The position numbers were made by a program, and so were the translations under genes. A DNA stretch of 25,219 nt from positions 1 to 25,219 of IMG/VR virus record IMGVR_UViG_3300036945_000500. One strand, given 5' to 3'. Below, piece after piece: positions 859 through 25,219 of the stretch. Below the pieces are notes generated by a model that made no database searches, was not told the origin of the DNA, and saw only the letters and a list, made by a program, of their open reading frames with translations. Position 1 is the stretch's first letter, and the number at the start of each line of letters is the position of its first letter. This stretch comes from a virus.

Positions 859-1029
859 AGTATGAGAGGTAACCCATACTTGTTCTTAGTACTTCACCAA
901 CGACACCACTCATCAAGTGGATTAGCTACTAAGTTTCTCTATCCTTGTGGGTTTCGCCAAAGAGCTGTGGCTGGTCTGATTAGGACGCGTATAGAAGAAC
1001 CCGCATGCTAAGATGAGGGCCGTGTTTCC
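859..1029 (-). ncRNA. Gene-free structured leader of the tRNA transcript
   Basis: About 170 nt between a promoter-like site (start near 1029) and tRNA-Asn contain no ORF and no complete tRNA. On the minus strand, 885-933 folds with a perfect 7-bp closing helix (CTTAGTA / TACTAAG) around an inner hairpin CCACT / AGTGG (906-920). A second hairpin, AGTATG / CATACT, lies at 859-880. The closing helix looks like a tRNA acceptor stem, but the enclosed element is only 49 nt, too short for a tRNA. It could be a degenerate tRNA, a processing signal or a small phage RNA. Confidence 0.4.
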
Positions 1030-1046
1030 TATTAGGCTCCAGCTAG
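1024..1046 (-). promoter_or_regulatory. Predicted phage RNA polymerase promoter for the tRNA cluster
   Basis: The minus strand reads TAGCTGGAGCCTAATAGG, close to the window consensus TAGYCGGWRCCTAATAGG. By analogy with T7 (...TATAG) the start would be the G at 1029. The element overlaps the last codons and stop of the thioredoxin gene and points into the tRNA region. Confidence 0.7.
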
Positions 1047-3206: not shown

Positions 3207-5408
3207 TTAGCAAAAGAAATACTTTGAGTTATAAACGTCTTGGAGGTCTAAACTTCCGGTCTCAGGCTGAGGGAAAGTGAATGATTCTTTATTCTCCATG
3301 AGAGTATCTTGTAGAGTGTTAAAGAAGTTTTCTGTATCATACTGAGCAATGAAGTTCATCTTAGTTACTTCTTGTAGAAAGTCCACTTCATTAGCGTGAG
3401 TACTAAAAGAATCATGAACTGCACCGAAGCTACCGTTAAAGCCAACAATAGTATTAGCCATGTGAGCAGCATCATAGGAATGTACAACGTTAGGGCTAAT
3501 ACCCGAAGCAAAACTCCTACGGCATGGTACTTTTTCCCCAGTTTCTTTATTGAGGACATCCACTTTGATAACGTGCATGATACGACCATCTTTATTTCCC
3601 GTAATGCCTCGTATCGTACCTCGCTGTTTGCGTTCGTGCTGAAGATAAGCTTTGTAAACCACAGGGAAGCCACTAGGAGTGTGCCAAGTAAGGTTATTTC
3701 TACCGGAGTTAAGTTCATGTTCTGCAATCTTCTGTAAGTATTTAGTTGTTTTAAGTGGACCAGCACATACAGTGTTGATAGCCTTAATCAAGTTACCTGC
3801 CAGAGTATCACACTGATCTTGATCAATGTTATACTTAACAGTAAAACCTTCTACGTGGCAATCATCATACATGTTCTTGGCGATACGTTGTTTACCTGCT
3901 GAGTAAGCACGAGTCATAGAGCCTCGTTTAGCGATACCCTTACGGATATGCTTCATAGGCATTTGCTTCTCTGTAAACCAGTCAGGCATGATGGTGATAA
4001 GTTCTTTAGCAACAGCTACGTAGAAGTCTTTCTGGATAGGAGTAGGTACTAAGGACACTAATGTACCTGCTTGTTTATCCTTAGACATAGCTGCAAGATG
4101 TTGCCAGCCGTTATTAGAACCATCAATAGGAATAGGGAACCCTGACATGTACTCTTGTCGGAGCATCTTTGACTGATTGTATCCCTCGATTTCTAAACAA
4201 GCAGCTAAGAAGCTATAAGGCTTTTCAGCTGACATGTTGATGATACGATGACGCGCAACTTTCTTAATAGACTCCATGTTGTTATCAACCCAAGCAGCAC
4301 GATCATCTAATGTCATTTTGTCTAAGGAGATAGTATCAAGACCTTCTTCTTGTAGGTAAGCTTTGTAGTCAGTCTTAAAGTAGCTTGGGATTTCATCGAT
4401 GTTAAACGAAGTATTGTAGCAAGCTGCTGTATGTACCTTTAACCAGAAGAAACCTTTTTCACTGACATGCTTTTTGTTAGCGAATAAAAAGAGACTACGA
4501 GCTAAGTCACTACCTTGGAACTCAAGGAATGATTCAGCATAGTAGACTCGTCCACGATAGTCACAAGAGACTTCTTGATAGAAGGTCTGGTCATTAACTA
4601 ATCGTGCTTTCTTCAGTACTTGATTGTACTCGAAGTACTTACTCAGCATGCGCTGTAGCTTAGGGTCTTTCTTACCCATGAACTTAGTACCATCTAAGTG
4701 GTTAAGCTTCTTAGGTAAGTTAAGGTTCTCATGGTGAATGTTGTATACAAAGATCTCACCATTCTCATCAACCAAGTCAAGAGTTTCTGAAGGGTATGTA
4801 TTCTCCATAGCCTCTAGCACTGGAATGTTTAGTTTCCAAGGCTGTTGGCGTAATGTTTCTAGACTCTTGATGAACGGTTTGTCTAGGTACTCATGGAACA
4901 ATCGACTGTTAGACCAGCCTTTGATGAACGGTTCTTTAGTAAGATGACTATACAAACCAGTGATAGGTAGTAGCGGTTCAAATGATGTGCCGATTAACGT
5001 GGGCTTAACATCATCTGTTTGGTTAACAATACGTACCATGTATGGAGCCTTACGACCGTCATACTCACGGAAGATATCGATTAGACCGTCTTGTAAGAAG
5101 GTTTCAAGCAATAGGTCTCCGAGCGAGAGGGTTGATTTGATGTTGTGTTCATCTGTACCAATAGCCCTTGCGATTCGTTTTCCAATAAGGTCACTAGCGA
5201 AAGTGAGCTTAACAGAGGCTGAATGGGTTGCATTTTTATTTCGAATGCAGTAACGTAGTAGAGTGTCCCATGATTCATTTATAAACCTTTCTAGATCGTA
5301 TTCCCATGTGGGGTGGTATGCAAGGAGACGCGCACCCTCATTATAGATCTTATCTGAGTTTAATACTACCTTGGCTACTCGTTCAGTAAGATATTGTGTT
5401 GGATTCAT
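3207..5408 (-). CDS. T7-like single-subunit DNA-directed RNA polymerase
   Basis: 733 residues (T7 RNA polymerase 883; the N-terminal domain is shorter). Catalytic elements are in order: CDYRGRVYY at 282-290; PIPIDGSNNGWQH with the metal ligand D429 (T7 D537); KRGSMTRAY with K494 and Y502, spaced exactly as T7 K631/Y639; SPNVVHSYDAAH near 638-649; and VHDSF with the second metal ligand D666 (T7 D812). The C-terminus is YFFC, in place of the T7 FAFA foot. It should transcribe this genome from the TAGYCGGWRCCTAATAGG elements. It sits at the end of the replication module, 6 nt after a small gene and just before the reductase operon, not at the early end as in T7. Confidence 0.97.
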   Translation of the reverse strand: MNPTQYLTERVAKVVLNSDKIYNEGARLLAYHPTWEYDLERFINESWDTLLRYCIRNKNATHSASVKLTFASDLIGKRIARAIGTDEHNIKSTLSLGDLLLETFLQDGLIDIFREYDGRKAPYMVRIVNQTDDVKPTLIGTSFEPLLPITGLYSHLTKEPFIKGWSNSRLFHEYLDKPFIKSLETLRQQPWKLNIPVLEAMENTYPSETLDLVDENGEIFVYNIHHENLNLPKKLNHLDGTKFMGKKDPKLQRMLSKYFEYNQVLKKARLVNDQTFYQEVSCDYRGRVYYAESFLEFQGSDLARSLFLFANKKHVSEKGFFWLKVHTAACYNTSFNIDEIPSYFKTDYKAYLQEEGLDTISLDKMTLDDRAAWVDNNMESIKKVARHRIINMSAEKPYSFLAACLEIEGYNQSKMLRQEYMSGFPIPIDGSNNGWQHLAAMSKDKQAGTLVSLVPTPIQKDFYVAVAKELITIMPDWFTEKQMPMKHIRKGIAKRGSMTRAYSAGKQRIAKNMYDDCHVEGFTVKYNIDQDQCDTLAGNLIKAINTVCAGPLKTTKYLQKIAEHELNSGRNNLTWHTPSGFPVVYKAYLQHERKQRGTIRGITGNKDGRIMHVIKVDVLNKETGEKVPCRRSFASGISPNVVHSYDAAHMANTIVGFNGSFGAVHDSFSTHANEVDFLQEVTKMNFIAQYDTENFFNTLQDTLMENKESFTFPQPETGSLDLQDVYNSKYFFC

Positions 5409-5414
5409 TGTTCT

Positions 5415-5759
5415 TTAGGGTAAGTTGTTTTTCTTGGCAAAGGAATAGAAGTCTTTAGATGAGAACTTACCATCATTGAATTCAATTAAGGTGTCACCTA
5501 ATGCTTTATGGTAGTCTAGCTTTTCAAGTTCACGAGCAATTTGTTTGTTACTATCTTTAAGCCAGTAACCACCATCCCATTCGTGAAAGTACTCAAAACT
5601 ATTTTCCCATTTCCAGCGGAATAAATTAGCAAAGAAGCCATCTTCGTATTCTGCTTTTCTTAGTTGAGCGCGATGCTCAATGCCTTTAATACGTTCCTCG
5701 TTATCCTTCATTAAGGTTTCAAGGTACAAGCGGTAGTTGTCAAGTTTAATTAATGCCAT
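5415..5759 (-). CDS. Hypothetical protein, 114 residues
   Basis: No family recognised. The protein is charged, predicted helical and soluble, rich in aromatic residues in the middle (FRWKWENSFEYFHEWDGGYW, residues 47-66), with a C-terminal segment DGKFSSKDFYSFAKK. The ATG overlaps the primase-helicase stop codon (TAATG), and the RNA polymerase starts 6 nt after its stop. It is therefore translated between two replication/transcription genes and may assist one of them; that is inference from position only. Confidence 0.75.
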   Translation of the reverse strand: MALIKLDNYRLYLETLMKDNEERIKGIEHRAQLRKAEYEDGFFANLFRWKWENSFEYFHEWDGGYWLKDSNKQIARELEKLDYHKALGDTLIEFNDGKFSSKDFYSFAKKNNLP

Positions 5760-7363
5760 TATTCGAAATCCACAAAAGAAGTTTGATTTAGACGGCCTGT
5801 TTTAGCATCATACGATGTGCTACCACAGTCACCAGTGCGACCAGTGTGTCGGCATTTAAGGACACGGAGTCGGATTGTGTTACGGACTTGTTCCATCTCA
5901 GCAACCATATTACGGCAGAAGGCAATGATATCGAACGAGATTTGTTTGATAGAGCCTGAGCCTTTGATGTCATCGATAGAAGGCATGTGACCTTCTTCGA
6001 ATGGCTTTTCACCTTTACGCAAGTGAGATACAACACCTAACCAGATGTTATGCTTCTTAGTGATCTTGAGTAGGTCAGACATGAAGGAGTCAACTGCTTC
6101 GTTACCTGTCTTACCCTTAACACCTTCAGATACAGCAATAGTAATGTGGTCAAGGATAATGTACTTACAACCCATCAATGCTAGGTGTTCAATCTTATCA
6201 ATCAATGACTCATCACTAACAGAACCTTGGTGGTCAAGTAGTACTAAGCGTTCATCACCGAAGACAGTCTTGAATGCTTTATACTGTTCTTCCTCGGAGA
6301 TATCAGCTGACTTAAGATCTTTCTTAAGCTGCATACCAATGAACTTCTCTGCAGTATCACCTACAGACTCTTCAAGTGATACCATACCTACCATGTCTTG
6401 AGTCTTGTCTAGGATTTCTAGGACAATCTCTTTGATGACAGTAGATTTACCTGAGCCAGTACCTGAAGTGAACAGTACGATCTCACCGAGACGCATACCG
6501 AAGAGCTTGTCATTGAGTGAGTTCAAACAAGAAGGGTAGGCTAGGGATACAACAGACTGCTTAAGTTTGAATTGTTCCCATACAGCTTCACCCTTGACTA
6601 CATCAGAAGGGCTGTATGTAACTGCATTGAAGATACAGTTCATTAGAGCTGCAGAACCTTGTTTGATTAGTACATCACAAGGGTCTTTCTCGGGTAGTGA
6701 TGCTACCTTTACTTTATCGTAGCCGATAATCTTAGCTGCAGCTTGAACAGCTTTCTGACCGGGTTCATCCATGTCAAACATCAATACGACTTCATCGAAC
6801 CCACGTAACCATTCACGCTGTTCGAGAATCATTGATGTAGCAGAGGCAGAAGGTAGTGCTACCGCTGGATAGAACCGTTGGTACTTGTCGTATTGGGCTT
6901 GTGCTACAGCGAGCGCATCAAGCTCTCCTTCACATATGACGATTCGTTTACCACCAGTAGCGTTTGCTTGTCCAAAGAGTTGTATGCCTTTAAAGTCACC
7001 GTGGATGACAAATGACTTAGGTAACTTTCGTTCTTTGTAAGCCACGACCATTCCATCTTTAGTGTAAGGATAAAAATGACTAGCCATAGTACCGTCTTCA
7101 GCATACGAAACTTTAACTCCGTATTGAGCTGCGACAGTTTTAGTGATACCTCGTTCTTGAAATCCTCGTGTGTCATAATTTGTAATCTCGTTTAGTGTGT
7201 GCATGTTGTAGTCTTCAGTGTGATATTCGGTTGGTGTATATGCGGGGTCGATTGGAGATGACTTCTGGCAACTAAAGCAGAAGCCATGTGAGTCATCTTC
7301 TTTGTAGCTAAACGCATCGGATGATGAACATTTAGGACACGGTGCGTGGATCCATCGTGACAT
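5759..7363 (-). CDS. Primase-helicase (T7 gp4-like)
   Basis: 534 residues (T7 gp4: 566). The N-terminal zinc-binding domain has C9, C12, C29 and C32. The TOPRIM primase domain has CEGELDALA with E146 and MFDMDEPG with D197/D199. The C-terminal RecA-like helicase has Walker A SGTGSGKST (300-308), Walker B YIILDH (401-406), and SHLRKG near 446 (helicase motif H3-like). The short tail TSFVDFE ends in acidic and aromatic residues, as in gp4 where the tail touches the polymerase. It unwinds DNA and primes the lagging strand. It follows a 55-residue gene by 3 nt and is coupled to the next gene by TAATG. Confidence 0.96.
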   Translation of the reverse strand: MSRWIHAPCPKCSSSDAFSYKEDDSHGFCFSCQKSSPIDPAYTPTEYHTEDYNMHTLNEITNYDTRGFQERGITKTVAAQYGVKVSYAEDGTMASHFYPYTKDGMVVAYKERKLPKSFVIHGDFKGIQLFGQANATGGKRIVICEGELDALAVAQAQYDKYQRFYPAVALPSASATSMILEQREWLRGFDEVVLMFDMDEPGQKAVQAAAKIIGYDKVKVASLPEKDPCDVLIKQGSAALMNCIFNAVTYSPSDVVKGEAVWEQFKLKQSVVSLAYPSCLNSLNDKLFGMRLGEIVLFTSGTGSGKSTVIKEIVLEILDKTQDMVGMVSLEESVGDTAEKFIGMQLKKDLKSADISEEEQYKAFKTVFGDERLVLLDHQGSVSDESLIDKIEHLALMGCKYIILDHITIAVSEGVKGKTGNEAVDSFMSDLLKITKKHNIWLGVVSHLRKGEKPFEEGHMPSIDDIKGSGSIKQISFDIIAFCRNMVAEMEQVRNTIRLRVLKCRHTGRTGDCGSTSYDAKTGRLNQTSFVDFE

Positions 7364-12198: not shown

Positions 12199-12341
12199 TG
12201 TTCGATGTCCTCGATGTTTACGATTTGATATGTTTCATTCTTGTTGAGTTCTGCTGACATAGAGTCAATAAGGTATTTGACTTCATCTTCAGATGACTCT
12301 TCAAGAAAGTATACTACGGTTACTACTGTTTGCTTTTTCAT
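12195..12341 (-). CDS. Small hypothetical protein, 48 residues, first gene after a promoter
   Basis: The product begins MKKQTVVTVVYFLEESSEDE and ends IVNIEDIEQ. It is an acidic alpha/beta miniprotein with no recognised family. The ATG lies about 11 nt after the predicted transcription start of the promoter at 12346-12369, and no Shine-Dalgarno sequence is visible in that short leader. The stop overlaps the MazG-like ATG (ATGA). It may act partly to load ribosomes for the downstream operon. Confidence 0.65.
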   Translation of the reverse strand: MKKQTVVTVVYFLEESSEDEVKYLIDSMSAELNKNETYQIVNIEDIEQ

Positions 12342-12345
12342 GGTG

Positions 12346-12369
12346 TGTTCTCTATAAGGTACCGTCTCG
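12346..12369 (-). promoter_or_regulatory. Predicted phage promoter for the MazG-to-polymerase operon
   Basis: The minus strand reads CGAGACGGTACCTTATAG. The GGTACCT and ATAG parts match the other copies; one core base differs (TTATAG for TAATAG). The likely start is the G at 12352. It lies in the 38-nt gap between the DNA ligase stop and the 48-residue gene. Confidence 0.62.
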
Positions 12370-12379
12370 GGTTTGCATG

Positions 12380-14283: not shown

Positions 14284-14432
14284 TGTGTTAACATATATAA
14301 GCCCACGTTACCGAGAGCATATCCAAAGTAGGTTATTGACATACCGATATTACCTTTAGTGAATTGTTCTATAGAGATATAGAGATACACTAAGCCGATA
14401 CCAGCGATTAAGACAGGAGATTCAACTTGCAT
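14280..14432 (-). CDS. Small membrane protein, 50 residues
   Basis: The product begins MQVESPVLIAGIGLVYLY and holds two hydrophobic stretches (about 6-19 and 31-48) separated by EQFTKGN, so a two-helix hairpin in the membrane is likely. It overlaps the zinc-ribbon gene by 4 nt and the upstream zinc-finger micro-gene by 25 nt. No family recognised. Confidence 0.6.
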   Translation of the reverse strand: MQVESPVLIAGIGLVYLYISIEQFTKGNIGMSITYFGYALGNVGLYMLTQ

Positions 14433-14575
14433 ACATGCTCCTTGTACTCTTTAGAAGTTATCCATAGAGACTTACATCGATGGCATTCATAGATGTAGTT
14501 TATATTGACTCTACCGTCTAACTTGGAGGTGTACGTTTTAACTATTCGAGGTGGGTGGATATTCGCAGAGGCCAT
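14408..14575 (-). CDS. Small zinc-finger-like protein, 55 residues
   Basis: The product begins MASANIHPPRIVKTYTSKLD and contains ECHRCKSLWITSKEYKEHVC (30-49): C-x2-C, 11 residues, H-x-C, an arrangement of a single zinc finger. It overlaps the neighbouring genes by 38 nt and 25 nt, larger than usual for this genome, which lowers confidence slightly. The intact metal-ligand pattern argues for a real protein, perhaps nucleic-acid binding. Confidence 0.6.
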   Translation of the reverse strand: MASANIHPPRIVKTYTSKLDGRVNINYIYECHRCKSLWITSKEYKEHVCKLNLLS

Positions 14576-14735
14576 TATCAATTAGTTGTTGAGCCATACG
14601 CTGGTATGAGCCTTGTAGGTTATTGATTGTGCGAGTATTGATTAGGTATTGGAATCCTTTGATAGTTCTTTCCATATTTAAGTTACCTGATTCGAATTCA
14701 ATAATGAAGTCTACTACATCAAATGGTTTAGTCAT
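14538..14735 (-). CDS. Conserved small phage protein, 65 residues
   Basis: It contains DFIIEFESGNLNMERTIKGF and FQYLINT...LQGSYQRMAQQLIDNGLC, a pattern I recognise from many phage small proteins of unknown function (a DUF-type family). It is helical and soluble. The stop of the upstream 43-residue ORF lies inside its first codons, so the two are coupled. Confidence 0.78.
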   Translation of the reverse strand: MTKPFDVVDFIIEFESGNLNMERTIKGFQYLINTRTINNLQGSYQRMAQQLIDNGLCEYPPTSNS

Positions 14736-14859
14736 ACTTTTGGGTTCTCACTTCTTCAATTTGTTCAATAGATGGTGTAGCGGAGAACTCAAACTCAGCT
14801 AAGAATTTGAGTCCTTCGTATACCCGTAGACGGTCTGCGAGTATAAGTACTAATCTCAC
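14728..14859 (-). CDS. Possible small protein with GTG start, 43 residues
   Basis: The gap between two genes is spanned by an ORF starting with GTG that overlaps the upstream TGA (GTGA) and ends 8 nt inside the next gene. The product would begin MRLVLILADRLRVYEGLKFL, then an acidic helix SIEQIEEVRTQKYD. The exact gap filling is the evidence. There is no ATG and no family. Confidence 0.5.
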   Translation of the reverse strand: MRLVLILADRLRVYEGLKFLAEFEFSATPSIEQIEEVRTQKYD

Positions 14860-15299
14860 TTGAGTTCGCTTAAGAAGCCAATGATAGTACCTTCACGCTC
14901 AAGGATTTCGAGGCAACGAGTATACCAGACTACTTTACGTACTTCTTGTAGTTCGTTATCTTTCTTACCCATACGCATGAGGTACTTATAGATTTGACCG
15001 AGTAAATGCTTTTTCAAGCCTTCTTTACCAAGGATAAATTCCATACATTCGATATACTGGTAGTTACCTACGATACCTTGGTAGTGGTCTGGGTTGATTT
15101 GGTCTTTGGTCATAGGTGTAGTTAAGATTTTGAAAGAGGTTTGGTGTTCATCAATTTCTTGATTGTATGATTTAGCGAATGTTTCAGGCCATACTTTCTT
15201 TGTTAGGTATTGGTCATAGAAGTCTTGTTTGTTATCAACACCGAATTCACGTTTGTAGTCTGCAGCTTTCCACAGCTGTTTGTCATTATCAATAAACAT
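14856..15299 (-). CDS. T7 gp1.7-like protein (DUF3310 domain)
   Basis: 147 residues with the start at 15299, chosen because AAGGAG lies 7 nt upstream; the frame is open to 15341. The C-terminal part INPDHYQG...YIECMEFIL...KKHLLGQIYKYLMRMGKK, ending in VVWYTRCLEIL, is the DUF3310 pattern found in T7 gene 1.7, described as a nucleoside mono/diphosphate kinase without a Walker motif. The N-terminal part (about 60 residues) has no recognised domain. A role in dNTP supply fits the neighbouring nucleotide genes. Confidence 0.8.
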   Translation of the reverse strand: MFIDNDKQLWKAADYKREFGVDNKQDFYDQYLTKKVWPETFAKSYNQEIDEHQTSFKILTTPMTKDQINPDHYQGIVGNYQYIECMEFILGKEGLKKHLLGQIYKYLMRMGKKDNELQEVRKVVWYTRCLEILEREGTIIGFLSELK

Positions 15300-18804: not shown

Positions 18805-19040
18805 TTTAGTTCCTTAAGGGCTTTACGGATACGAGCAGCTTTGCTGCGGTCATTTCTTAATTCTGTTTTCCAGAAGTTTAGTTTCTTGAATTCATCTGAC
18901 GTTTCGTTTGCTAGTAGGATATCACAACGGTCGTAGTAGTTGGATACTGCTGCTTTGTCAAAAGCGATATCATCTTCTAGCTCATTTAAATTATTAGTTA
19001 ATGCTTGTCGTGCTAGTACTCGTGCTGAATGGCTGATCAT
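18801..19040 (-). CDS. Hypothetical helical protein, 79 residues
   Basis: The start at 19040 is chosen because AGGA lies 7-8 nt upstream; the open frame to 19082 would run into a terminator hairpin. The product begins MISHSARVLARQALTNNLNE and is almost entirely helical and charged, with coiled-coil character and a basic C-terminus (RSKAARIRKALKELK). No family recognised. Confidence 0.7.
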   Translation of the reverse strand: MISHSARVLARQALTNNLNELEDDIAFDKAAVSNYYDRCDILLANETSDEFKKLNFWKTELRNDRSKAARIRKALKELK

Positions 19041-19064
19041 AGGTGTTCCTTTTGGATAGAAGAA

Positions 19065-19116
19065 ATAAAAAAGCCCGTTCAACAGACTGGTGGGTCTGCC
19101 GAAGGGCTAGTTTTTA
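19065..19116 (-). terminator. Rho-independent-type terminator after the SSB gene
   Basis: On the minus strand the hairpin AGCCC (19108-19104) with GGGCT (19076-19072), supported by an inner CAGAC / GTCTG pair, is followed by a run of six T. On the plus strand the same hairpin is followed by AGTTTTTA, so it may work both ways. It separates the SSB gene from the downstream small genes. Confidence 0.75.
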
Positions 19117-19134
19117 TAGTGGGTAATCGTCAGT

Positions 19135-19662
19135 TCAGAAGTCTGCTGGTGAGTGGCCTGTTGGGGCTGGTTCATCACCGTCATCATCGAAGTCAACGAA
19201 GTTACTATTCTTTGGTTCGTATTTAACGAGGTTAGATACTTGTACTGCAGTGAGCATTACAGAGGTACCTTCTTTAGTTACAACACCTTTAGGTGTCTTG
19301 ATTTGGTAGTCTTTCAAGAACACCATGACGTTACCTACAGAGCCATTACCGATGGTCTTAGGGTCGAGTGGCTGTTTGCTTATATCAACGACACGTACTT
19401 TAGTGGCATCTGTACCGTCTTTCTTTTGAGCTTTCTTCTTGAGGTTAATAGATACTTTACCTGTATCTTTACCGTCACGGTCTTTGACAGGCTTAGTCTT
19501 ACCGTAGGCTTCGAGTTCTGCAGCACGCTTTTTATCCACTTGAACGGAGATTTCGTACTGCTCGACTCCGAAGGGCGCTACTGGCTTGTCGAGTTTAACC
19601 CAGTGGAGTTCAACGTTCTTGATGATTTCGTTGCGGCCTTCAGTGTTTTGAGCTTGTGTCAT
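19135..19662 (-). CDS. Single-stranded DNA-binding protein (T7 gp2.5-like)
   Basis: 175 residues (T7 gp2.5: 232). The N-terminal part EGRNEIIKNVELHWVKLDKP and repeated basic strands (INLKKKAQKKDG) fit an OB-fold, and the C-terminus is a typical acidic tail, DFDDDGDEPAP...PADF, ending in Phe as in gp2.5, which uses it to contact polymerase and helicase. AAAGGAAAACAAA precedes the ATG. It is monocistronic-looking: an upstream intergenic region with promoter-like sequence and a terminator right after it. Family assignment rests on tail and context more than on motifs in the core. Confidence 0.8.
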   Translation of the reverse strand: MTQAQNTEGRNEIIKNVELHWVKLDKPVAPFGVEQYEISVQVDKKRAAELEAYGKTKPVKDRDGKDTGKVSINLKKKAQKKDGTDATKVRVVDISKQPLDPKTIGNGSVGNVMVFLKDYQIKTPKGVVTKEGTSVMLTAVQVSNLVKYEPKNSNFVDFDDDGDEPAPTGHSPADF

Positions 19663-19704
19663 TTTGTTTTCCTTTTGGAAGATAGTTAGTTTACGGTGAA
19701 TTTG

Positions 19705-19728
19705 CTAGATGGTACCTATTAGAAAATA
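19705..19728 (+). promoter_or_regulatory. Predicted plus-strand phage promoter for the packaging gene
   Basis: The plus strand reads CTAGATGGTACCTATTAGAA, sharing GGTACCTA-TAG with the minus-strand promoters; the likely start is the G at 19722. The reverse strand also contains CTAATAGG, so a minor minus-strand activity toward SSB is possible. The 28 nt that follow are AT-rich and lead to GAGG upstream of the ATG at 19750. Confidence 0.6.
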
Positions 19729-19749
19729 AATTTAAAAAGAGGTACACAA

Positions 19750-20139
19750 ATGAGCGAAGTTAAATTAGGGAAGGGTTTTAATCCTAAATCCCTAGATAAT
19801 CTCAAGAGGATTACTCCTGAGACGGCTAGAGCAAATCAGCTGAAGAGCGTTGTAGCTAAACAGGCTAATATTGCGGCTAGAGAACAGTTCAAGCTTAACG
19901 CTAAGAACTTTATTCAGGTGATGGATGAGCTACCAAAGCTTTCTCCATTAGACGTTATGCGAATGGCAATTCACAAAGCTATCGCTGAGGATAATTATGA
20001 GGATGCTGCTCGATATGCCTCCTTGTTGGCAGAGTATGAGAATCCTAAGTTAGCCCGTATTGAACAGACTAACACTAATCGTACTGCAGACCTTTCAGAT
20101 GAAGAGTTGCAAGAGATTATTCGTAAAGAAGGTTTATAA
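19750..20139 (+). CDS. Probable small terminase subunit-like DNA packaging protein
   Basis: 129 residues, the only plus-strand gene in the window. The N-terminus MSEVKLGKGFNPKSLDNLKR, a helical middle with LSPLDVMRMAIHKAIAEDNY and EDAARYASLLAEYENPKLAR, and the closing DLSDEELQEIIRKEG are typical of phage small terminase subunits, which recognise DNA for packaging and oligomerise through helices. No DNA-binding motif is certain, and the large terminase is not in the window. It has its own promoter-like site, GAGG ribosome-binding site and terminator. An alternative is a different DNA-binding or scaffold protein. Confidence 0.6.
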   Translation: MSEVKLGKGFNPKSLDNLKRITPETARANQLKSVVAKQANIAAREQFKLNAKNFIQVMDELPKLSPLDVMRMAIHKAIAEDNYEDAARYASLLAEYENPKLARIEQTNTNRTADLSDEELQEIIRKEGL

Positions 20140-20143
20140 AATA

Positions 20144-20174
20144 AAGAGAGAATCAATTACGATTCTCTTTTTTA
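20144..20174 (+). terminator. Terminator after the plus-strand packaging gene
   Basis: AGAGAATC (20147-20154), loop AATTAC, then GATTCTCT (20161-20168) followed by a six-T run form a strong Rho-independent hairpin. The minus strand also has a T-rich tail after the hairpin, so transcripts from the promoter at 20190 may also stop here. Confidence 0.85.
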
Positions 20175-20189
20175 TTCCTACTTAGAGAT

Positions 20190-20212
20190 GTTCCCTATTA
20201 GGTTCCGGCTAA
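20190..20212 (-). promoter_or_regulatory. Predicted phage promoter facing the plus-strand cassette
   Basis: The minus strand reads TTAGCCGGAACCTAATAGGG, one of the two best consensus copies; likely start G at 20195. It overlaps the stop codon of the gene at 20209-20394. Transcription would meet the hairpin at 20168-20147 within 30 nt and continue antisense to the packaging gene if it reads through, reaching SSB. Confidence 0.72.
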
Positions 20213-20394
20213 GACAAAGTCCAAGTTACGGTAGCTGTTTGCATTTTACCTAGCTCGTAGAACGCCATATCTTCAGGGTCAGCGTCATCATCGTGGTAGT
20301 TACGGAATTGACGGAATGCTTCTTCTGGACTTTCACCAAACGCTACATCAGCACCACGACAACAGTTGTGTTCTTGGGTCATACACATCCACAT
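20209..20394 (-). CDS. Conserved small phage protein, 61 residues
   Basis: The product begins MWMCMTQEHNCCRGADVAFG and has SPEEAFRQFRNYHDDDADPE then AFYELGKMQTATVTW. The 'SPEEAFRQF' plus 'FYEL' pattern occurs in small phage proteins of unknown role. AAAGG lies 8 nt before the ATG at 20394; an alternative ATG is at 20382. The stop is inside the promoter at 20190. Confidence 0.7.
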   Translation of the reverse strand: MWMCMTQEHNCCRGADVAFGESPEEAFRQFRNYHDDDADPEDMAFYELGKMQTATVTWTLS

Positions 20395-20398
20395 ATGA

Positions 20399-20725
20399 TT
20401 AACCTTTCTTGGACAAATAGAGAGCCATACGAGTAGCTAACGGGTAGGTTACCTCAGAGTACATACCTTCGTTTTTGTACTTTTCAGGTACTTCAAAGGC
20501 AGTAAACAGAGCATGCATACCGTTGAGTTCGTTGGTAGCTTCTGTATGGAGCTTTGAGTAGTAGTCTTTGTTACTCTGAGCGTATGATAGCTCTTTCTTA
20601 ACAGACTCTAATTCTGTTTTGTACTTCTTGTTATCTTCATAGATAGTTTTAACTTCAGCATCAGTGAGAGTGATGTTGATTGTTTCGAGGTCAGTGCCAG
20701 ATACAGAGATAGAGATTGTGTTCAT
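20399..20725 (-). CDS. Hypothetical coiled-coil protein, 108 residues
   Basis: The N-terminal segment MNTISISVSGTDLETINITL is beta-like, followed by TDAEVKTIYEDNKKYKTELE and a long charged helix to about residue 68, predicted coiled coil, then a compact end with VPEKYKNEGMYSEV. Not recognised. The spacing to the next gene is 4 nt. Confidence 0.72.
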   Translation of the reverse strand: MNTISISVSGTDLETINITLTDAEVKTIYEDNKKYKTELESVKKELSYAQSNKDYYSKLHTEATNELNGMHALFTAFEVPEKYKNEGMYSEVTYPLATRMALYLSKKG

Positions 20726-20734
20726 GATGTGCCC

Positions 20735-20989
20735 TTAGATTGAATGGTATTTAGTTACTGTTACTTGAACGGGTTTTACTTCGTCAATATCGATGTCACC
20801 ATACTCGTAGTCAGAGTAATAGTTACCTGAACGATTATGGATTACACGATAGAATTTGTTATCAAATTTTACGATGTCTTCACGGGAAGAGTAGTCTTTG
20901 TAGTCGTTTTCCCAGTCACCTTGTTGGATTACTTCAACGGTTTCAAGGTAGTCGTTATCTTCATCAAGTAGGATTTTATTTAAGTTCAT
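20735..20989 (-). CDS. Hypothetical acidic protein, 84 residues
   Basis: Very acidic, rich in D, E and Y (GDWENDYKDYSSREDIVKFD, then SGNYYSDYEYGDIDIDEVKP). The ATG overlaps the upstream stop by 1 nt (TAATG). No family recognised. Acidic early phage proteins are sometimes inhibitors that mimic DNA, but nothing specific shows that here. Confidence 0.7.
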   Translation of the reverse strand: MNLNKILLDEDNDYLETVEVIQQGDWENDYKDYSSREDIVKFDNKFYRVIHNRSGNYYSDYEYGDIDIDEVKPVQVTVTKYHSI

Positions 20990-21210
20990 TACAGTACGCC
21001 TTTACAAACAGTTTGATAGATATCATACAGGGTATCACCAGCTTCTTTACAAGTTGGGATATCGTTTTCGAACCCATTATCTTGGACTAATTCGAATAGT
21101 TTTACACCACTTAAGTGACTAATAGCTGAATACAACACTTTCAGCTCTTTATCGCTTAAGGTTAGAACGTGTGTTTGTGTTGTTACTGTGGTAGATACGA
21201 TTTCACTCAT
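20989..21210 (-). CDS. Hypothetical protein, 73 residues
   Basis: A Thr/Val-rich N-terminus (MSEIVSTTVTTQTHVLTLSD) leads into a helix KELKVLYSAISHLSGVKLFE. The layout (beta strand ending in LTLSD, then a helix with small hydrophobic residues) resembles that of the protein at 23563-23910, and both may belong to one broad phage family. It is coupled to its upstream neighbour by an ATGA overlap. The function is unknown. Confidence 0.7.
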   Translation of the reverse strand: MSEIVSTTVTTQTHVLTLSDKELKVLYSAISHLSGVKLFELVQDNGFENDIPTCKEAGDTLYDIYQTVCKGVL

Positions 21211-21725
21211 GCGCGTTTTTCCAATTCAGCTAATACAGCTGCTTTAGCTAGTGAGAGTTTTCCTAATTGCTTGATGATGTAAGCATTATCAGAAGCACGA
21301 AGACCAGCTAGTTCCTCTTGTTTTTGAGCTATGTTTGATAACAGTTGGATGAGTTGTTCTGGTGAGGCAGTCTCGATGGTAGTTGTGAATACGATTGTTT
21401 GTGTTGTGAAGATGTTGTTTGACATAGGTTCTTTCGTGGTTGGAATTTCAGCACAAGGGTTTTGATTAACAATACTAGGAGCTACAAAGTAACAGGCTGA
21501 TACATTATCATAAGTTACTAGCTCAAGGCTTTTAGCTTGGCAACAGACGCCGTACGGACTTCTTTCAAGTAAATCAGCAATGGCATGCACTGATAGATTA
21601 CCTGCTGTGATTTCTACACGCAATAGCTGTTTTTCGTAGTTACTCCATATCTTACCGTGGTTTTTAGGCAGTGCAAGTGATGCGTTGTTAACCTCTTTGA
21701 AAGTTGCGAATATGATTGGTTTCAT
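21207..21725 (-). CDS. Hypothetical protein with a Myb/HTH-like N-terminal segment
   Basis: 172 residues. The N-terminal part GKIWSNYEKQLLRVEITAGN followed by AIADLLERSPYGVCCQAKSL (47-66) has the look of a helix-turn-helix (W-x2-E...L, IA-x2-L-x-R-S-x2-G-V), as in phage proteins that contact DNA. The middle has a Thr-rich beta stretch (NNIFTTQTIVFTTTIETASP), and the C-terminus is helical (QLLSNIAQKQEELAGL...LAELEKRA). No family fixed. A transcription or DNA-binding role is a guess from the first 66 residues. Confidence 0.7.
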   Translation of the reverse strand: MKPIIFATFKEVNNASLALPKNHGKIWSNYEKQLLRVEITAGNLSVHAIADLLERSPYGVCCQAKSLELVTYDNVSACYFVAPSIVNQNPCAEIPTTKEPMSNNIFTTQTIVFTTTIETASPEQLIQLLSNIAQKQEELAGLRASDNAYIIKQLGKLSLAKAAVLAELEKRA

Positions 21726-22033
21726 GTGTGCATAACTTGTTTGATAGGTGTTTTACTGATAGCATTAGCGCATGCAGGGCAAGGTTTAGCTAACAAATAA
21801 GAACCAGACTTTCCTGTTCTGAAGATATGAATAGAATGTGCTTTGGTTAAATCTTTGCATCGGATGATAGCATCAATCTCAGCATGTAGGAATATCTTTT
21901 CAGGTAGACCTACTGCTGCAGCACACTCAGCTTGGTACGGATGAGACTTTGTATAGTTGTTTTTACCTATACTAAGCACTCTGCCCCGTTTGTCGTAGAT
22001 AACTGCGGTTAAATACTGCTTCTCCTTTTTCAT
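21722..22033 (-). CDS. Small cytidine/deoxycytidylate deaminase-like protein
   Basis: 103 residues with the zinc-deaminase signature: HAE (H50, E52) in FLHAEIDAII and PCPAC (C85, C88) in LLAKPCPACANAI, preceded by the core strand YLTAVIYDKRGRVLSIGKNN. It is shorter than the dCMP deaminase at 11337 and lacks the SYNGTPP substrate loop, so the substrate (free base, nucleoside or nucleotide) is unclear. It overlaps the upstream gene by 62 nt because the first core strand begins at residue 7, and is coupled to the next gene by ATGA. Confidence 0.82.
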   Translation of the reverse strand: MKKEKQYLTAVIYDKRGRVLSIGKNNYTKSHPYQAECAAAVGLPEKIFLHAEIDAIIRCKDLTKAHSIHIFRTGKSGSYLLAKPCPACANAISKTPIKQVMHT

Positions 22034-22379
22034 TGATTTTACCTACTATACGAGCTTTCTTACGGTTGAATACTACTTGGTTTTTGCCATATTTGACTTC
22101 TGATTTGGGTACTTCTAGAATAGCTAGTCTGTTACGAGTTTTTTTATGGTGGGTTAGATGGTCTTGATTCCACCATTTGAAGAACTGCTTTAGAGACCTA
22201 CAACCACACCAAAAAGGGCTACCGTTAATTAGATGCTTGCGTAGACCATCTTGCCAAGGTGTTGGTAAATTAATCCACTCGTTTGTCAGTTTAACGTAGG
22301 TGTTTGAATAACGATGACCACCTTGTAGGCGATCACCAATGACTTCACAACGGTACACTAACACAGTATCAGTCATCAT
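21972..22379 (-). CDS. Hypothetical basic protein, 135 residues
   Basis: Not recognised. Basic and rich in aromatic residues (SLKQFFKWWNQDHLTHHKKT near 62-81), with a C-terminal VVFNRKKARIVGKINEKGEA. The pattern VYRCEVIGDRLQGGH at 8-22 suggests a small alpha/beta domain; nucleic-acid binding is possible from the charge. The last 62 nt overlap the deaminase start in a different frame, unusually long for this genome. Confidence 0.65.
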   Translation of the reverse strand: MMTDTVLVYRCEVIGDRLQGGHRYSNTYVKLTNEWINLPTPWQDGLRKHLINGSPFWCGCRSLKQFFKWWNQDHLTHHKKTRNRLAILEVPKSEVKYGKNQVVFNRKKARIVGKINEKGEAVFNRSYLRQTGQSA

Positions 22380-22575
22380 TCCCTCCGAATGTTACACCTG
22401 AACCTTTCACATACTTAACCCAGATGAGTTTACCATCTAGAAAGCATTTTTGAACCCCTGTTACGGGGTCAAATACGATACATTCCTTATCTTTAACTGA
22501 TTTACGAACTCTAACGATGAGTTGTCGGTAGATTTCTGAAGCCTCTTCGGGATTCCGTGGTAGTAAGCTTGGCAT
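22369..22575 (-). CDS. Hypothetical protein, 68 residues
   Basis: The product starts MPSLLPRNPEEASEIYRQLI, then beta-rich VRKSVKDKECIVFDPVTGVQ and KCFLDGKLIWVKYVKGSG. Its start lies 65 nt inside the upstream membrane-protein gene, and its end overlaps the next gene by 11 nt. A GGA-containing stretch lies about 10 nt upstream of the ATG. No family recognised. Confidence 0.6.
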   Translation of the reverse strand: MPSLLPRNPEEASEIYRQLIVRVRKSVKDKECIVFDPVTGVQKCFLDGKLIWVKYVKGSGVTFGGNDD

Positions 22576-22708
22576 TTAGGTTCTTTCCTTTGTCTGTTTC
22601 TCTTGAATCAAGGATTTCTTTACGTTTCTTTTCAGAGCGTCTTGTATACCATACTTTGAATAGAGCCATAAACATGAGCCATACAAGGAGTATGATAAAC
22701 CAGATCAT
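22511..22708 (-). CDS. Small membrane protein, 65 residues
   Basis: The N-terminal transmembrane helix MIWFIILLVWLMFMALFKVW is followed by a strongly basic cytoplasmic tail (RRSEKKRKEILDSRETDK). The topology would be N-out/C-in by the positive-inside rule. The start forms an ATGA with the upstream stop. The tail overlaps the next gene and may be partly dictated by it. Confidence 0.65.
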   Translation of the reverse strand: MIWFIILLVWLMFMALFKVWYTRRSEKKRKEILDSRETDKGKNLNAKLTTTESRRGFRNLPTTHR

Positions 22709-22926
22709 AACACATGTTTGTTAAGTGCGTTAGAGATTGAACCCATTAGAGTTGATAGTTGTTGTTGCTCTTTAGGTTCTTTAGCATAGTGGCCATACAC
22801 AACACTTGGTACAGTTACATTACGTTTCATGAGTTTATGTATTAAGTTGATTTCTTCTTGAGTTTCAAAGGTTATTGTGAATTCTACTGGCTTGAATGCT
22901 GGTTCTGTTTTTGAGTTGAGTTTCAT
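22705..22926 (-). CDS. Hypothetical protein, 73 residues
   Basis: The product contains KPVEFTITFETQEEINLIHK and KEPKEQQQLSTLMGSISNAL: a beta strand followed by two helices. This 'ITFET-EE--LIH-L' start is a pattern seen in small phage proteins that lack known roles. It overlaps the upstream gene by 1 nt (TAATG) and the membrane protein by 4 nt. Confidence 0.7.
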   Translation of the reverse strand: MKLNSKTEPAFKPVEFTITFETQEEINLIHKLMKRNVTVPSVVYGHYAKEPKEQQQLSTLMGSISNALNKHVL

Positions 22927-23243
22927 TAGATAATCTCCGCTTTGACTGGTGTACCGTGTTCATTGAAGGTTACTTTGATATTGTCAGCACATGGCTGTTG
23001 ATCAGCAGTAGCCCATAAGTGACCGCTTCGAGGGCATACATGAACATGGATGTTAGCAGTACTGATTTGAAGTTTGAGAGTGAATTCATACATATTATTG
23101 CTCACTCGGTAGACGTCACTAGGGAATTCGTAAGGAGCTACTTTATCCCATACTTCACTTTCATTTCTACGAAACCATACGGTTTTACCACGGATAAAGT
23201 CACTAACGATGTATGGATGGAATCCACGATAGATGTGTTTCAT
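22926..23243 (-). CDS. Hypothetical protein, 105 residues, paralogue of the next gene
   Basis: It shares a layout with the protein at 23243-23566: a helical start, RGKTVWFRRNESEVWDKVAP, then a PSDVYRV beta segment, and a closing IKVTFNEHGTPVKAEII. The same order (GKT-x-R, SD-x-YR, K-x-TF, KAEVI/KAEII) is found in the neighbour, so the two probably arose by tandem duplication. The 'GK-x-V-x-(Y/F)R' block also occurs in widespread phage proteins of unknown function. Both junctions overlap by 1 nt. Confidence 0.7.
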   Translation of the reverse strand: MKHIYRGFHPYIVSDFIRGKTVWFRRNESEVWDKVAPYEFPSDVYRVSNNMYEFTLKLQISTANIHVHVCPRSGHLWATADQQPCADNIKVTFNEHGTPVKAEII

Positions 23244-23566
23244 TAGATTACCTCTGCTTTGGTTAGTTTATTATCTTCGAATGTTAGTTTGATACGTTTA
23301 GTATTCTCACACATTGATACATGCATGTATGGTCTAGAAGAACAGAAGCCATTTGTTTTGAGAGCGTCTTCAAAGTGAGCTGCTAGTACATATTTAACTT
23401 CATGGTTAGGTTGGATACGATACTCGAAGTCACTAGGGTAGAAAGAGATGTCACCACGGAAAGGGTTTTTGGGTATCCATTCATTATCTTTTACTTTTGG
23501 ATCTGTACTACGATACTCAATAGTTTTGCCTTCTGTATAGGCTTTGATTATTTCAATTAGATTCAT
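23243..23566 (-). CDS. Hypothetical protein, 107 residues, paralogue of the previous gene
   Basis: The product starts MNLIEIIKAYTEGKTIEYRS, then WIPKNPFRGDISFYPSDFEY and RIQPN, a central YVLAAHFEDALKTNG, and the ending KLTFEDNKLTKAEVI. This follows the 'GKTIEYRS...W...EYRI.P' pattern common in phage proteins that are named only as hypothetical. It overlaps the upstream gene by 4 nt (ATGA). Compared with the paralogue it carries an extra insertion before the FYPSDF block. Confidence 0.72.
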   Translation of the reverse strand: MNLIEIIKAYTEGKTIEYRSTDPKVKDNEWIPKNPFRGDISFYPSDFEYRIQPNHEVKYVLAAHFEDALKTNGFCSSRPYMHVSMCENTKRIKLTFEDNKLTKAEVI

Positions 23567-23910
23567 TCTTCATCCTTAGTAATGAGATAACGGGAGTTGT
23601 AAGAAGAGGTATCAACAAGAAAGAAGTCTTTAAAGCTATACTTTCTACTTGTCCACCCTGTATCTGCTCTGGTACTATAGTTCTGCAACCCTTCCCAGAT
23701 ACTATCTGTTATACGTCTGGTATCACCTCCACCAATAACATTACCACAGATAGCAACAATAACATCTACTTGTTCTTGTGTTAAAGTAACTTCATATACT
23801 TGTTCTTCTTTCATTACATACTTAGTCTTAGATTCATAAGTAGTAGTAACTACAGGGATGGTCTCTGTGATAGTATCATAGGATACTTTGGTGTATGGAT
23901 TAACGTTCAT
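23563..23910 (-). CDS. Hypothetical protein, 115 residues
   Basis: The N-terminus is Thr-rich beta (ITETIPVVTTTYESKTKYVM), then EVTLTQEQVDVIVAICGNVI and GGGDTRRITDSIWEGLQNYS. The 'LTQEQVDVIVAICGN-GGG' helix matches a common phage theme without known function. GAGG lies 8 nt before the ATG. It is the first gene after the promoter at 24036 and the repeat-rich AT segment. Confidence 0.7.
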   Translation of the reverse strand: MNVNPYTKVSYDTITETIPVVTTTYESKTKYVMKEEQVYEVTLTQEQVDVIVAICGNVIGGGDTRRITDSIWEGLQNYSTRADTGWTSRKYSFKDFFLVDTSSYNSRYLITKDEE

Positions 23911-23944
23911 TGATAAACCTCTTTGATTAACTTCATTGATGATG

Positions 23945-23996
23945 TTCTCTTAAGATATTCTCTTATGATAGTCTCTTAAGAATGTCTTATAGGAAT
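23945..23996. repeat. Three tandem 13-bp repeats (plus a degenerate fourth)
   Basis: Plus strand: TTCTCTTAAGATA (23945-23957), TTCTCTTATGATA (23958-23970), GTCTCTTAAGAAT (23971-23983), then a weaker GTCTTATAGGAAT (23984-23996). The repeats are head to tail with no spacers, in a gene-free AT-rich segment between the gene at 23910 and the promoter at 24036. They could be protein-binding iterons. Confidence 0.8.
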
Positions 23997-24017
23997 ATCA
24001 TTAATAATATCCCTATA
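23988..24017. repeat. Inverted repeat beside the 13-bp repeats
   Basis: TATAGGAATAT (23988-23998) and ATATCCCTATA (24007-24017) pair over 11 positions with one G-T, around an 8-nt AT-rich loop. It has no T-run on either side, so it is not a standard terminator. It lies between the promoter and the direct repeats. Confidence 0.75.
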
Positions 24018-24035
24018 ATAACCCAACGGAAGGGA

Positions 24036-24059
24036 AAATCCCTATTAGGTTCCGGCTAC
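24036..24059 (-). promoter_or_regulatory. Predicted phage promoter at the candidate origin
   Basis: The minus strand reads GTAGCCGGAACCTAATAGGG, identical in its core to the copy at 20190; likely start G at 24042. The transcript enters the inverted repeat and the tandem repeats before the gene starting at 23910. Confidence 0.72.
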
Positions 24060-24083
24060 GGAATGGATGTCAGACAAGGTAAC

Positions 24084-24428
24084 TTACTTTTTCTTACTCT
24101 CTTTCTCGATCATTTCATCTAACTTAGAGTTAACGATAGTAAGAAGCTTAGAACCAAATTCTTTAGCTTCTGGAGTTTCAACAACACGCTCAACAGCGTA
24201 AGCACCTACCATCAGATACATAGTTTTCTTAGCAGGTACAAAGATGATGAAAAGAGCACTGAGAGCGATAGCTACAGTAGTTCGTTTAAAGATATGCTGT
24301 GCTCGCATTGAGTCATCCATCACAGCACTCATACCTGAGATGAATGCTATAATACACGATACAACGAGAATGATACCAGCGATACACCCGATATTTTCGA
24401 GTACGTCAATGAAGTAGATTGTCCACAT
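24084..24428 (-). CDS. Conserved phage membrane protein, 114 residues
   Basis: The product begins MWTIYFIDVLENIGCIAGII and has two transmembrane helices (about 3-29 and 51-65, the latter IALSALFIIFVPAKKTMYLM), then a soluble tail with VVETPEAKEFGSKLLTIVNS and a Lys-rich end. The 'FVPAKKTMY' block after the second helix is familiar from phage membrane proteins of unknown role. The frame is open to 24575, but the extension has no membrane-protein character; the ATG at 24428 is favoured by this and by the MWTIY start. The alternative starts are 24551 and 24575. Confidence 0.72.
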   Translation of the reverse strand: MWTIYFIDVLENIGCIAGIILVVSCIIAFISGMSAVMDDSMRAQHIFKRTTVAIALSALFIIFVPAKKTMYLMVGAYAVERVVETPEAKEFGSKLLTIVNSKLDEMIEKESKKK

Positions 24429-24599
24429 GTGGATGCCCTTTAGATAGTTTTTGATGATGGTTCTATGGGTATAGTTTGGAAAGGTATATTGGTTTTGTAC
24501 CCTCAAGAATTCCCTCTCAGAACCCCGAAATCTCCCGAGAATCTCCGCCATGACACTCGTTCTGGTATACTCCACTCAGAATATACCCAAGGAATGTCA

Positions 24600-24622
24600 T
24601 AATGGTACCTACTAGGAGCTGT
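24600..24622. promoter_or_regulatory. Promoter-like element readable on both strands
   Basis: The plus strand reads GGTACCTACTAGGAG; the minus strand reads AGCTCCTAGTAGGTACC. Both resemble parts of the consensus (plus: GGTACCTA-TAGG; minus: CCTA-TAGG). The minus orientation would serve the membrane-protein gene downstream; the plus orientation has better upstream bases but no plus-strand gene follows in the window. Confidence 0.4.
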
Positions 24623-24623
24623 T

Positions 24624-24869
24624 TTACATAGTCCTATTCCTGCCCATCTCCTGTTCTGCTAGGTATTTGTCGTACGCGTATGCCTCTCGCTGGTATTTGG
24701 TGAGTTCTTCGATGAATTCTTGTAGGAGAATCATCAGATTAGGCGCTTCTTGGTGGTATTTTGTTATTTTGATGATCTCTTGGTACCCTCTTAGCAACAA
24801 AGCTAGGTTATTTACGTCCACTGAGGACATTTCTAGGTTGAATGTCCCTCGGTGCTTAGTTAACCGCAT
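24624..24869 (-). CDS. Hypothetical protein, 81 residues
   Basis: Not recognised. It is predicted to be a helical protein with an N-terminal TFNLEMSSVDVNNLALLLRG and a long helix LLQEFIEELTKYQREAYAYD. AGGAGA lies 7-8 nt before the ATG. The stop lies next to the two-way promoter-like site at 24600. Confidence 0.7.
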   Translation of the reverse strand: MRLTKHRGTFNLEMSSVDVNNLALLLRGYQEIIKITKYHQEAPNLMILLQEFIEELTKYQREAYAYDKYLAEQEMGRNRTM

Positions 24870-24973
24870 GATTTCTTCTCCTGTTTTGTGTTAAACCTAC
24901 GAAATTTGTAAGAAGAGCGTTGTTTCAGCTCTTCCTCCGTGTATTTCCTCTTAGATTCGGACGAGTTGGTCAT
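24860..24973 (-). CDS. Possible small basic protein, 37 residues
   Basis: An ORF starts inside the end of the gene at 24951-25199 and ends 10 nt inside the next gene. The product begins MTNSSESKRKYTEEELKQRS and continues YKFRRFNTKQEKKSCG; the composition is protein-like and basic. The gap-filling position and overlaps support it, but no clear ribosome-binding site is seen, and a perfect 7-bp hairpin (GAAGAGC / GCTCTTC) in the same stretch offers another explanation. Confidence 0.4.
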   Translation of the reverse strand: MTNSSESKRKYTEEELKQRSSYKFRRFNTKQEKKSCG

Positions 24974-25199
24974 ATGTAGCCGTGTATTCGACCATAGTTC
25001 CATCGAGATCTACGATAGTACACATCTGTTCGAGTGCTGCCTTGGTAGAAGCGTATGCGAAGGCGATAGGACGACCCTCAACGTCAGCAGACATGAGAGC
25101 GTTGCATGAGAATTCTTCGAGAGATTCGTAGAGAGCCTCCCATGAGTCCATTCCGAACTGTTCTGGTGTGAGGGGATTGAGCAAGAGGTATTTTGTCAT
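24951..25199 (-). CDS. Hypothetical protein, 82 residues
   Basis: The product begins MTKYLLLNPLTPEQFGMDSW and has EALYESLEEFSCNALMSADV and a closing VEYTATYDQLVRI. It is acidic, alpha/beta-like, not recognised. TAGGAGAAATACC upstream of the ATG is a good ribosome-binding site. It is the first gene of the window in the direction of transcription; its own promoter lies outside. Confidence 0.72.
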   Translation of the reverse strand: MTKYLLLNPLTPEQFGMDSWEALYESLEEFSCNALMSADVEGRPIAFAYASTKAALEQMCTIVDLDGTMVEYTATYDQLVRI

Positions 25200-25219
25200 G
25201 GTATTTCTCCTAGTTGACG

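Follow-up and report, generated by a model that had tools for sequence, protein, structure and literature searches.

The 173-nt gap at 23911-24083 of the viral DNA studied here is, in our reading, a phage promoter followed by an AT-rich leader, with an even chance of being at the same time one of two places at which this phage group carries an origin element of the T7/T3 type. That the promoter belongs to the phage's own RNA polymerase is near certain from its sequence, and from the layout the transcribed part of the gap is very likely the untranslated leader of gene 23910-23563. For a T7-type replication origin at this place we see the balance as about level, judging from the layout, from calibration on known origins and from the pattern of one element per genome. 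If the reading is true, an uncultured group of phages with 60-64 kb genomes replicates by T7-style transcription priming, and a simple test that recovers the known origins of T7 and T3 as well can predict its origin from sequence alone.

The analysed stretch, called the window, is a virus record of 25,219 bases. Phages of the group have genomes of ~60-64 kb and encode a T7-like RNA polymerase. Together with it, the window encodes a T7-type DNA polymerase and a primase-helicase, as well as an exonuclease, DNA and RNA ligases and a ribonucleotide reductase. A search of named phages gave neither near nor distant DNA matches to the window, and among named polymerases that of Roseobacter phage CRP-7 comes closest, with 31% identity. 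The features discussed below are collected in Table 1.

Table 1 Features of the gap, of the second promoter site and of the polymerase gene in the window.
Feature	Position	Strand	Basis or remark
Single-subunit (T7-like) RNA polymerase, which would read the promoters	3207..5408	-	PHROG 414, E=9e-102
Conserved gene against its neighbours' direction	19750..20139	+	without family match
Terminator-like hairpin between convergent genes, ~30 nt past the second promoter	20147..20168	-	hairpin search
Second, identical promoter	20192..20211	-	exact copy; AT dyad behind it in relatives without the 24039-24058 promoter
Gene next downstream of the promoter (115 aa)	23563..23910	-	without family match
Wider degenerate 13-nt periodic array, into ribosome-binding site and start codon	23898..23987	-	TRF, lag self-match
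9-codon frame MKLIKEVYQ; TGA overlaps the next gene's ATG	23907..23936	-	sequence
Three 13-bp tandem units, plus strand TTCTCTTAAGATA / TTCTCTTATGATA / GTCTCTTAAGAAT	23945..23983		repeat searches, shuffles
AT-rich inverted repeat (dyad)	23987..24018	-	16-nt arms at 88%; as RNA, 14-bp stem
Mini-hairpin GGGA-UUU-UCCC at the predicted transcript start	24032..24042	-	RNA fold
Promoter of phage single-subunit RNA polymerase, TAGCCGGAACCTAATAGGGA, predicted +1 at 24042	24039..24058	-	exact second copy, relatives, covariation
Upstream gene, 163 aa, unknown function	24084..24575	-	family match, PHROG 3878

A promoter of the phage-polymerase type

The initial annotation placed a near-consensus promoter in the gap. 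A promoter is present there, not of the sigma-70 type but an exact match to the consensus of the phage polymerase; a search of 23911-24083 for sigma-70 promoters found none. TAGCCGGAACCTAATAGGGA has two exact copies in the window, accompanied by degenerate ones, and seven matches with at most three mismatches compare with 0.025 per Markov simulation. In the genomes of relatives the consensus TAGYCGGWACCTAATAGRRA stands upstream of genes and tRNAs, a repetition beyond chance.

The cognate polymerase is encoded, and its residues change alongside the promoter bases. G008 and G012 carry the promoter form TAGTTGTCCCCTAATAGRRA in place of TAGYCGGWACCTAATAGRRA. The substitutions Q595H, K606P, D607K and M611R are among those that set their polymerases apart from all the others. 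The bases concerned are -12 to -8, which changed in this one clade with the specificity-loop region of the polymerase. By a gapless count back from the shared SGI(A/S)PN motif, residue 607 corresponds in T7 numbering to N748, which falls inside the specificity loop. The specificity loop of T7 RNA polymerase comprises residues 739-770 (PMC4411677). IMG/VR contained 110 stretches with a related polymerase, of which the best 80 were used. Among these 80 loci, polymerases with KH for KQ and PK or TK for KD in the specificity-loop region go with G(T/A)CC-CCTAATA promoters, the remaining loci that show promoters have the GG(W/other) type, and the split is consistent wherever loop and promoters are both visible. 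Intermediate forms also occur, namely TK/N with GACC, and KD/R with GGCC in L079. Due to this covariation, the identity of the promoter is close to certain even without an experiment.

The promoters of the window resemble those of the T7/T3/SP6/KP34 class in their length of ~20 bp, the GGGA start, recognition at -12 to -8 and covariation with the loop; they differ from that class by their own consensus TAGYCGGWACCTAATAGRRA and the clade form TAGTTGTCCCCTAATAGRRA, for neither of which a literature search limited to related terms found a report. Contigs L143 and L144 share CCTAATAGGGATTTTCCC, which we take as chance because a matching promoter context is absent there. Loci L010-L089 offer naturally occurring variants of polymerase/promoter specificity, and such pairs of changed specificity lend themselves to the study of promoter recognition.

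The probable leader and its 13-bp units

The gap has the extent first described and is flanked on both sides by minus-strand ORFs. Two gaps of similar length in the window, at 12199-12379 and 852-1031, hold a small ORF or promoter or border a tRNA. Read on the minus strand, the gap contains in this order the promoter, the 5' mini-hairpin, the AT-rich dyad, the 13-bp units, the 9-codon frame and the start of gene 23910-23563. The ribosome site of this gene, AAAGAGG at 23918-23924, lies inside the MKLIKEVYQ frame, and the overlap of frame and gene makes translational coupling possible. Of four close relatives, L003, L004 and L005 keep the start codon of the frame and L006 lacks it. In the same three, the mini-hairpin sequence GGGATTTTCCC (24042-24032) is retained; L006 has GGAATTTTCC. 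The inverted repeat of the initial annotation exists and is larger than the 11 bp given there, as the arms extend over 23987-24002 and 24003-24018. An Rfam scan of 19000-25219 gave no matches.

The three tandem 13-mers are real, at 23945-23957, 23958-23970 and 23971-23983. They are the best period-13 triplet of the window, with a mean pairwise identity of 0.85 that none of 1000 dinucleotide shuffles reached. TRF reported a second period-13 array at 23898-23940, adjoining the three units; the periodicity therefore extends through the ribosome-binding site and the start codon. The lag-13 self-match of the gap tract is 0.66 versus 0.30 in shuffles and ranks first of 22,536 leader-by-lag tests in 16 sequences. 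Further copies of the 13-bp unit were not found elsewhere in the window.

Such units had been likened to iterons or operator sites, each of which a phage protein would bind in order to open the DNA or control the promoter. Iteron origins of plasmids and some phages do share with the gap short head-to-tail direct repeats in an AT-rich intergenic stretch, and the repetition is far beyond chance. Against this stands the variation among relatives with both flanking genes in place: L003 has two units, L005/G003 a similar set, L004/G001 altered units with an inserted hairpin, and L006/G002 little beyond one unit, with the three-unit array absent and a period of 14 nearer the start codon. At the corresponding leader of G021 (reverse complement, ~2816-2980) there are 4.2 copies of TATAACCTGAGAA, and at the corresponding place in L184 there is ATATTATATAAGA, both with a 13-bp period and unrelated sequence. 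This recurrence of the period can be counted in favor of protein-binding units, but direct repeats kept in sequence and spacing were not seen: relatives range from loss of the three-unit array to several units. In seven first-promoter tracts (window, G001, G003, G011, G021, L184, L003) and in G009 the highest-ranking lag is 13; in G002, G007, G008 and G016 it is 14. Since lag 13 returns with unrelated sequences, it is the period and not the sequence that tends to recur. Fixed binding sites fit the units poorly; duplication within an AT-rich tract fits them, with or without a spacing constraint. The tested proteins encoded next to the gap, some of them without family match, included no recognised replication-initiator or repressor family, which may be a further difference from iteron origins. 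Given also that the unit occurs nowhere else in the window, we regard iterons or operators as very improbable and do not retain this part of the initial annotation.

The initial annotation also held that tandem repeats are foreign to T7 origins, which is true only in part. The AT block of the T7 primary origin contains three TWARAGA elements spaced by 13 and 12 nt (NC_001604, 5964-5998), the only triple cluster of this motif within 40 nt in T7; as the motif was selected with both sequences already in view, the cluster is no more than a lead. We considered the 13-nt period as a general mark of origins and rejected it: T7 1.1B (z 2.4) and OL (z 2.0) have it as their top lag only weakly, and T3 and CRP-7 lack it. 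T7 furthermore carries 13-bp-spaced tandem repeats of TAAAGA at 282-345, upstream of phiOL. The units of the gap could be the counterpart of such repeats near the T7 genome ends and take part in concatemer processing or packaging; however, the assemblies of the relatives are circular maps or fragments, nothing places a genome end at the gap, and we give this idea hardly any credence.

A more serious alternative is that the gap is a leader and nothing else. A strong promoter and a structured AT-rich 5' UTR would then set mRNA stability and translation of 23910-23563, and the units would be duplicates of a Shine-Dalgarno-like AU-rich segment without any part in replication. This agrees with the continuation of the 13-nt period through ribosome site and start codon, with the likeness of AAGAGA in each unit to the actual site AAAGAGG, and with L006/G002, where a ribosome-site unit is visibly duplicated at period 14. 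The leader also folds better than shuffles (z -2.7), though its base pairs lack compensatory changes among the three close sequences usable for covariation. We judge a leader-only role a real contender that falls somewhat short of an even chance; what weighs most against it comes from the second promoter site.

AT-rich tracts behind two alternative promoters

In T7, the primary origin lies at phi1.1A/phi1.1B, secondary origins exist, and origin use depends on T7 RNA polymerase; phi10 and phi17 are known as ordinary promoters only. For calibration we expressed the AT content of the 100 nt after each promoter as a percentile within its own genome. T7 promoters then rank with 1.1B at 99.8, OL and 6.5 at 99.7, OR and 17 at 97.3 and phi10 at 96.3. 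In T3, OL and 1.05 reach 99.8 and 6.5 reaches 99.4, and in the T3 record the primary origin is annotated as 5682-5758, directly after phi1.05. As phi10 and phi17 also score high, the statistic is not specific. The original papers on the T7 origins are cited in PMC5997990 and PMC6963530.

In the window, the promoters at 24039-24058 ("first") and 20211-20192 ("second") are both at the 98.9th percentile. First-site promoters of relatives lie at 98.3-99.9 in six of seven cases (the exception is G013, 72nd percentile) and second-site promoters at 97.6-100 in 12 of 14. The 84 other promoters have a median of 65, with three at or above 97.5; the difference between site and other promoters has a Mann-Whitney p of ~1e-9, a value that ignores the kinship of the relatives and uses site labels assigned after the data were seen. 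Thus the proposal of an AT-rich block behind a phage promoter, on the model of T7, gains support from both the relatives and the T7/T3 calibration. In T7 (phi1.1A/phi1.1B and AT block, 5848-6007) and T3 (phi1.05, 5682-5758), as in the gap, a promoter is followed directly by a top AT-rich tract, in an untranslated gap that extends up to a small gene's ribosome site. The gap has one promoter in place of the T7 tandem, which is no strict difference, as T3 also has one. It departs from T7 and T3 by its pronounced 13-bp array and AT dyad, by the placement of the element at either of two promoters, and in that initiation here is something we infer from layout and comparison only. CRP-7 has a similar order of early genes and a promoter with AT-rich tract at 2028 (+), 99.3, and at 38278 (-), 96.1; its promoter motif AGTCCMYTATTAAAAGGRA is different and the 13-bp array is absent. 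Being cultured, CRP-7 makes the layout testable.

Nine genomes or loci have the first promoter with its AT-rich tract (window, G001, G002, G003, G010, G011, G013, G021, L184). In these nine, the second promoter is followed by a spacer of 15-41 nt with an AT content of 0.55-0.67 and then by the terminator. Nine others show no first promoter in the available sequence (G007, G008, G009, G012, G014, G016, G019, L187, L189; weaker evidence in L187 and L189, which are short contigs), and their second-site spacer is 40-66 nt or longer, with an AT content of 0.76-0.89 and mostly an AT dyad. In these 18, the AT-rich dyad stands behind one of the two promoters and never behind both. On the polymerase tree, whose backbone is resolved only in part, the arrangement switches three times, and starred branches force one switch. 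In the relatives, the second-site tract has convergent genes on its two sides and a terminator behind it, and leads no immediate gene. It is therefore not an ordinary leader, which is our main reason to prefer an origin role over a leader-only role. As half of the relatives keep the element at the second promoter, the conserved unit would be the element and not the gap, if a single origin is shared. Among the points that speak against an origin are the general AT-richness of untranslated leaders, the single promoter ahead of the AT block, the low score of G013 and the relatives' lack of independence from each other.

At an origin of the T7/T3 type, the phage polymerase would initiate at 24042 and open the AT-rich tract. 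Some transcripts would stop or serve the phage DNA polymerase, working with the primase-helicase, as primers, and the rest would run on as mRNA for the block of small genes from 23910. The 13-bp units would serve as a changeable means of building the AT-rich tract rather than as fixed binding sites. We further speculate, and consider it unlikely, that promoter and AT dyad, often with a 13-bp period, form a single relocatable origin cassette behind either early promoter; conservation of the period of the array and not of its sequence would then suggest that transcription-primed origins obey a spacing rule or are subject to a copying mechanism. GC and AT skew were also inspected. Their minima are scattered around the early region without singling out the site, and skew follows gene direction, so it was not used as origin evidence and counts, if anything, against the site.

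G015 is the exception to the two-site pattern and matches neither site. It has three tandem phage promoters near 14.8 kb and beyond them a long AT-rich intergenic region (14300-14905, minus strand), a candidate for an origin at a third location. At 19706-20211 of the window, a plus-strand gene among minus-strand genes, preceded by a degenerate phage promoter at 19706-19725 (+), faces the second promoter and its terminator-like hairpin, and a short terminated RNA would be expected from the second promoter. At the other end of the window, genes for five tRNAs (Ser, Trp, Pro, Tyr, Asn), interrupted by an HNH endonuclease ORF, occupy 6-851 on the minus strand, downstream of a promoter at 1026-1045 (-).
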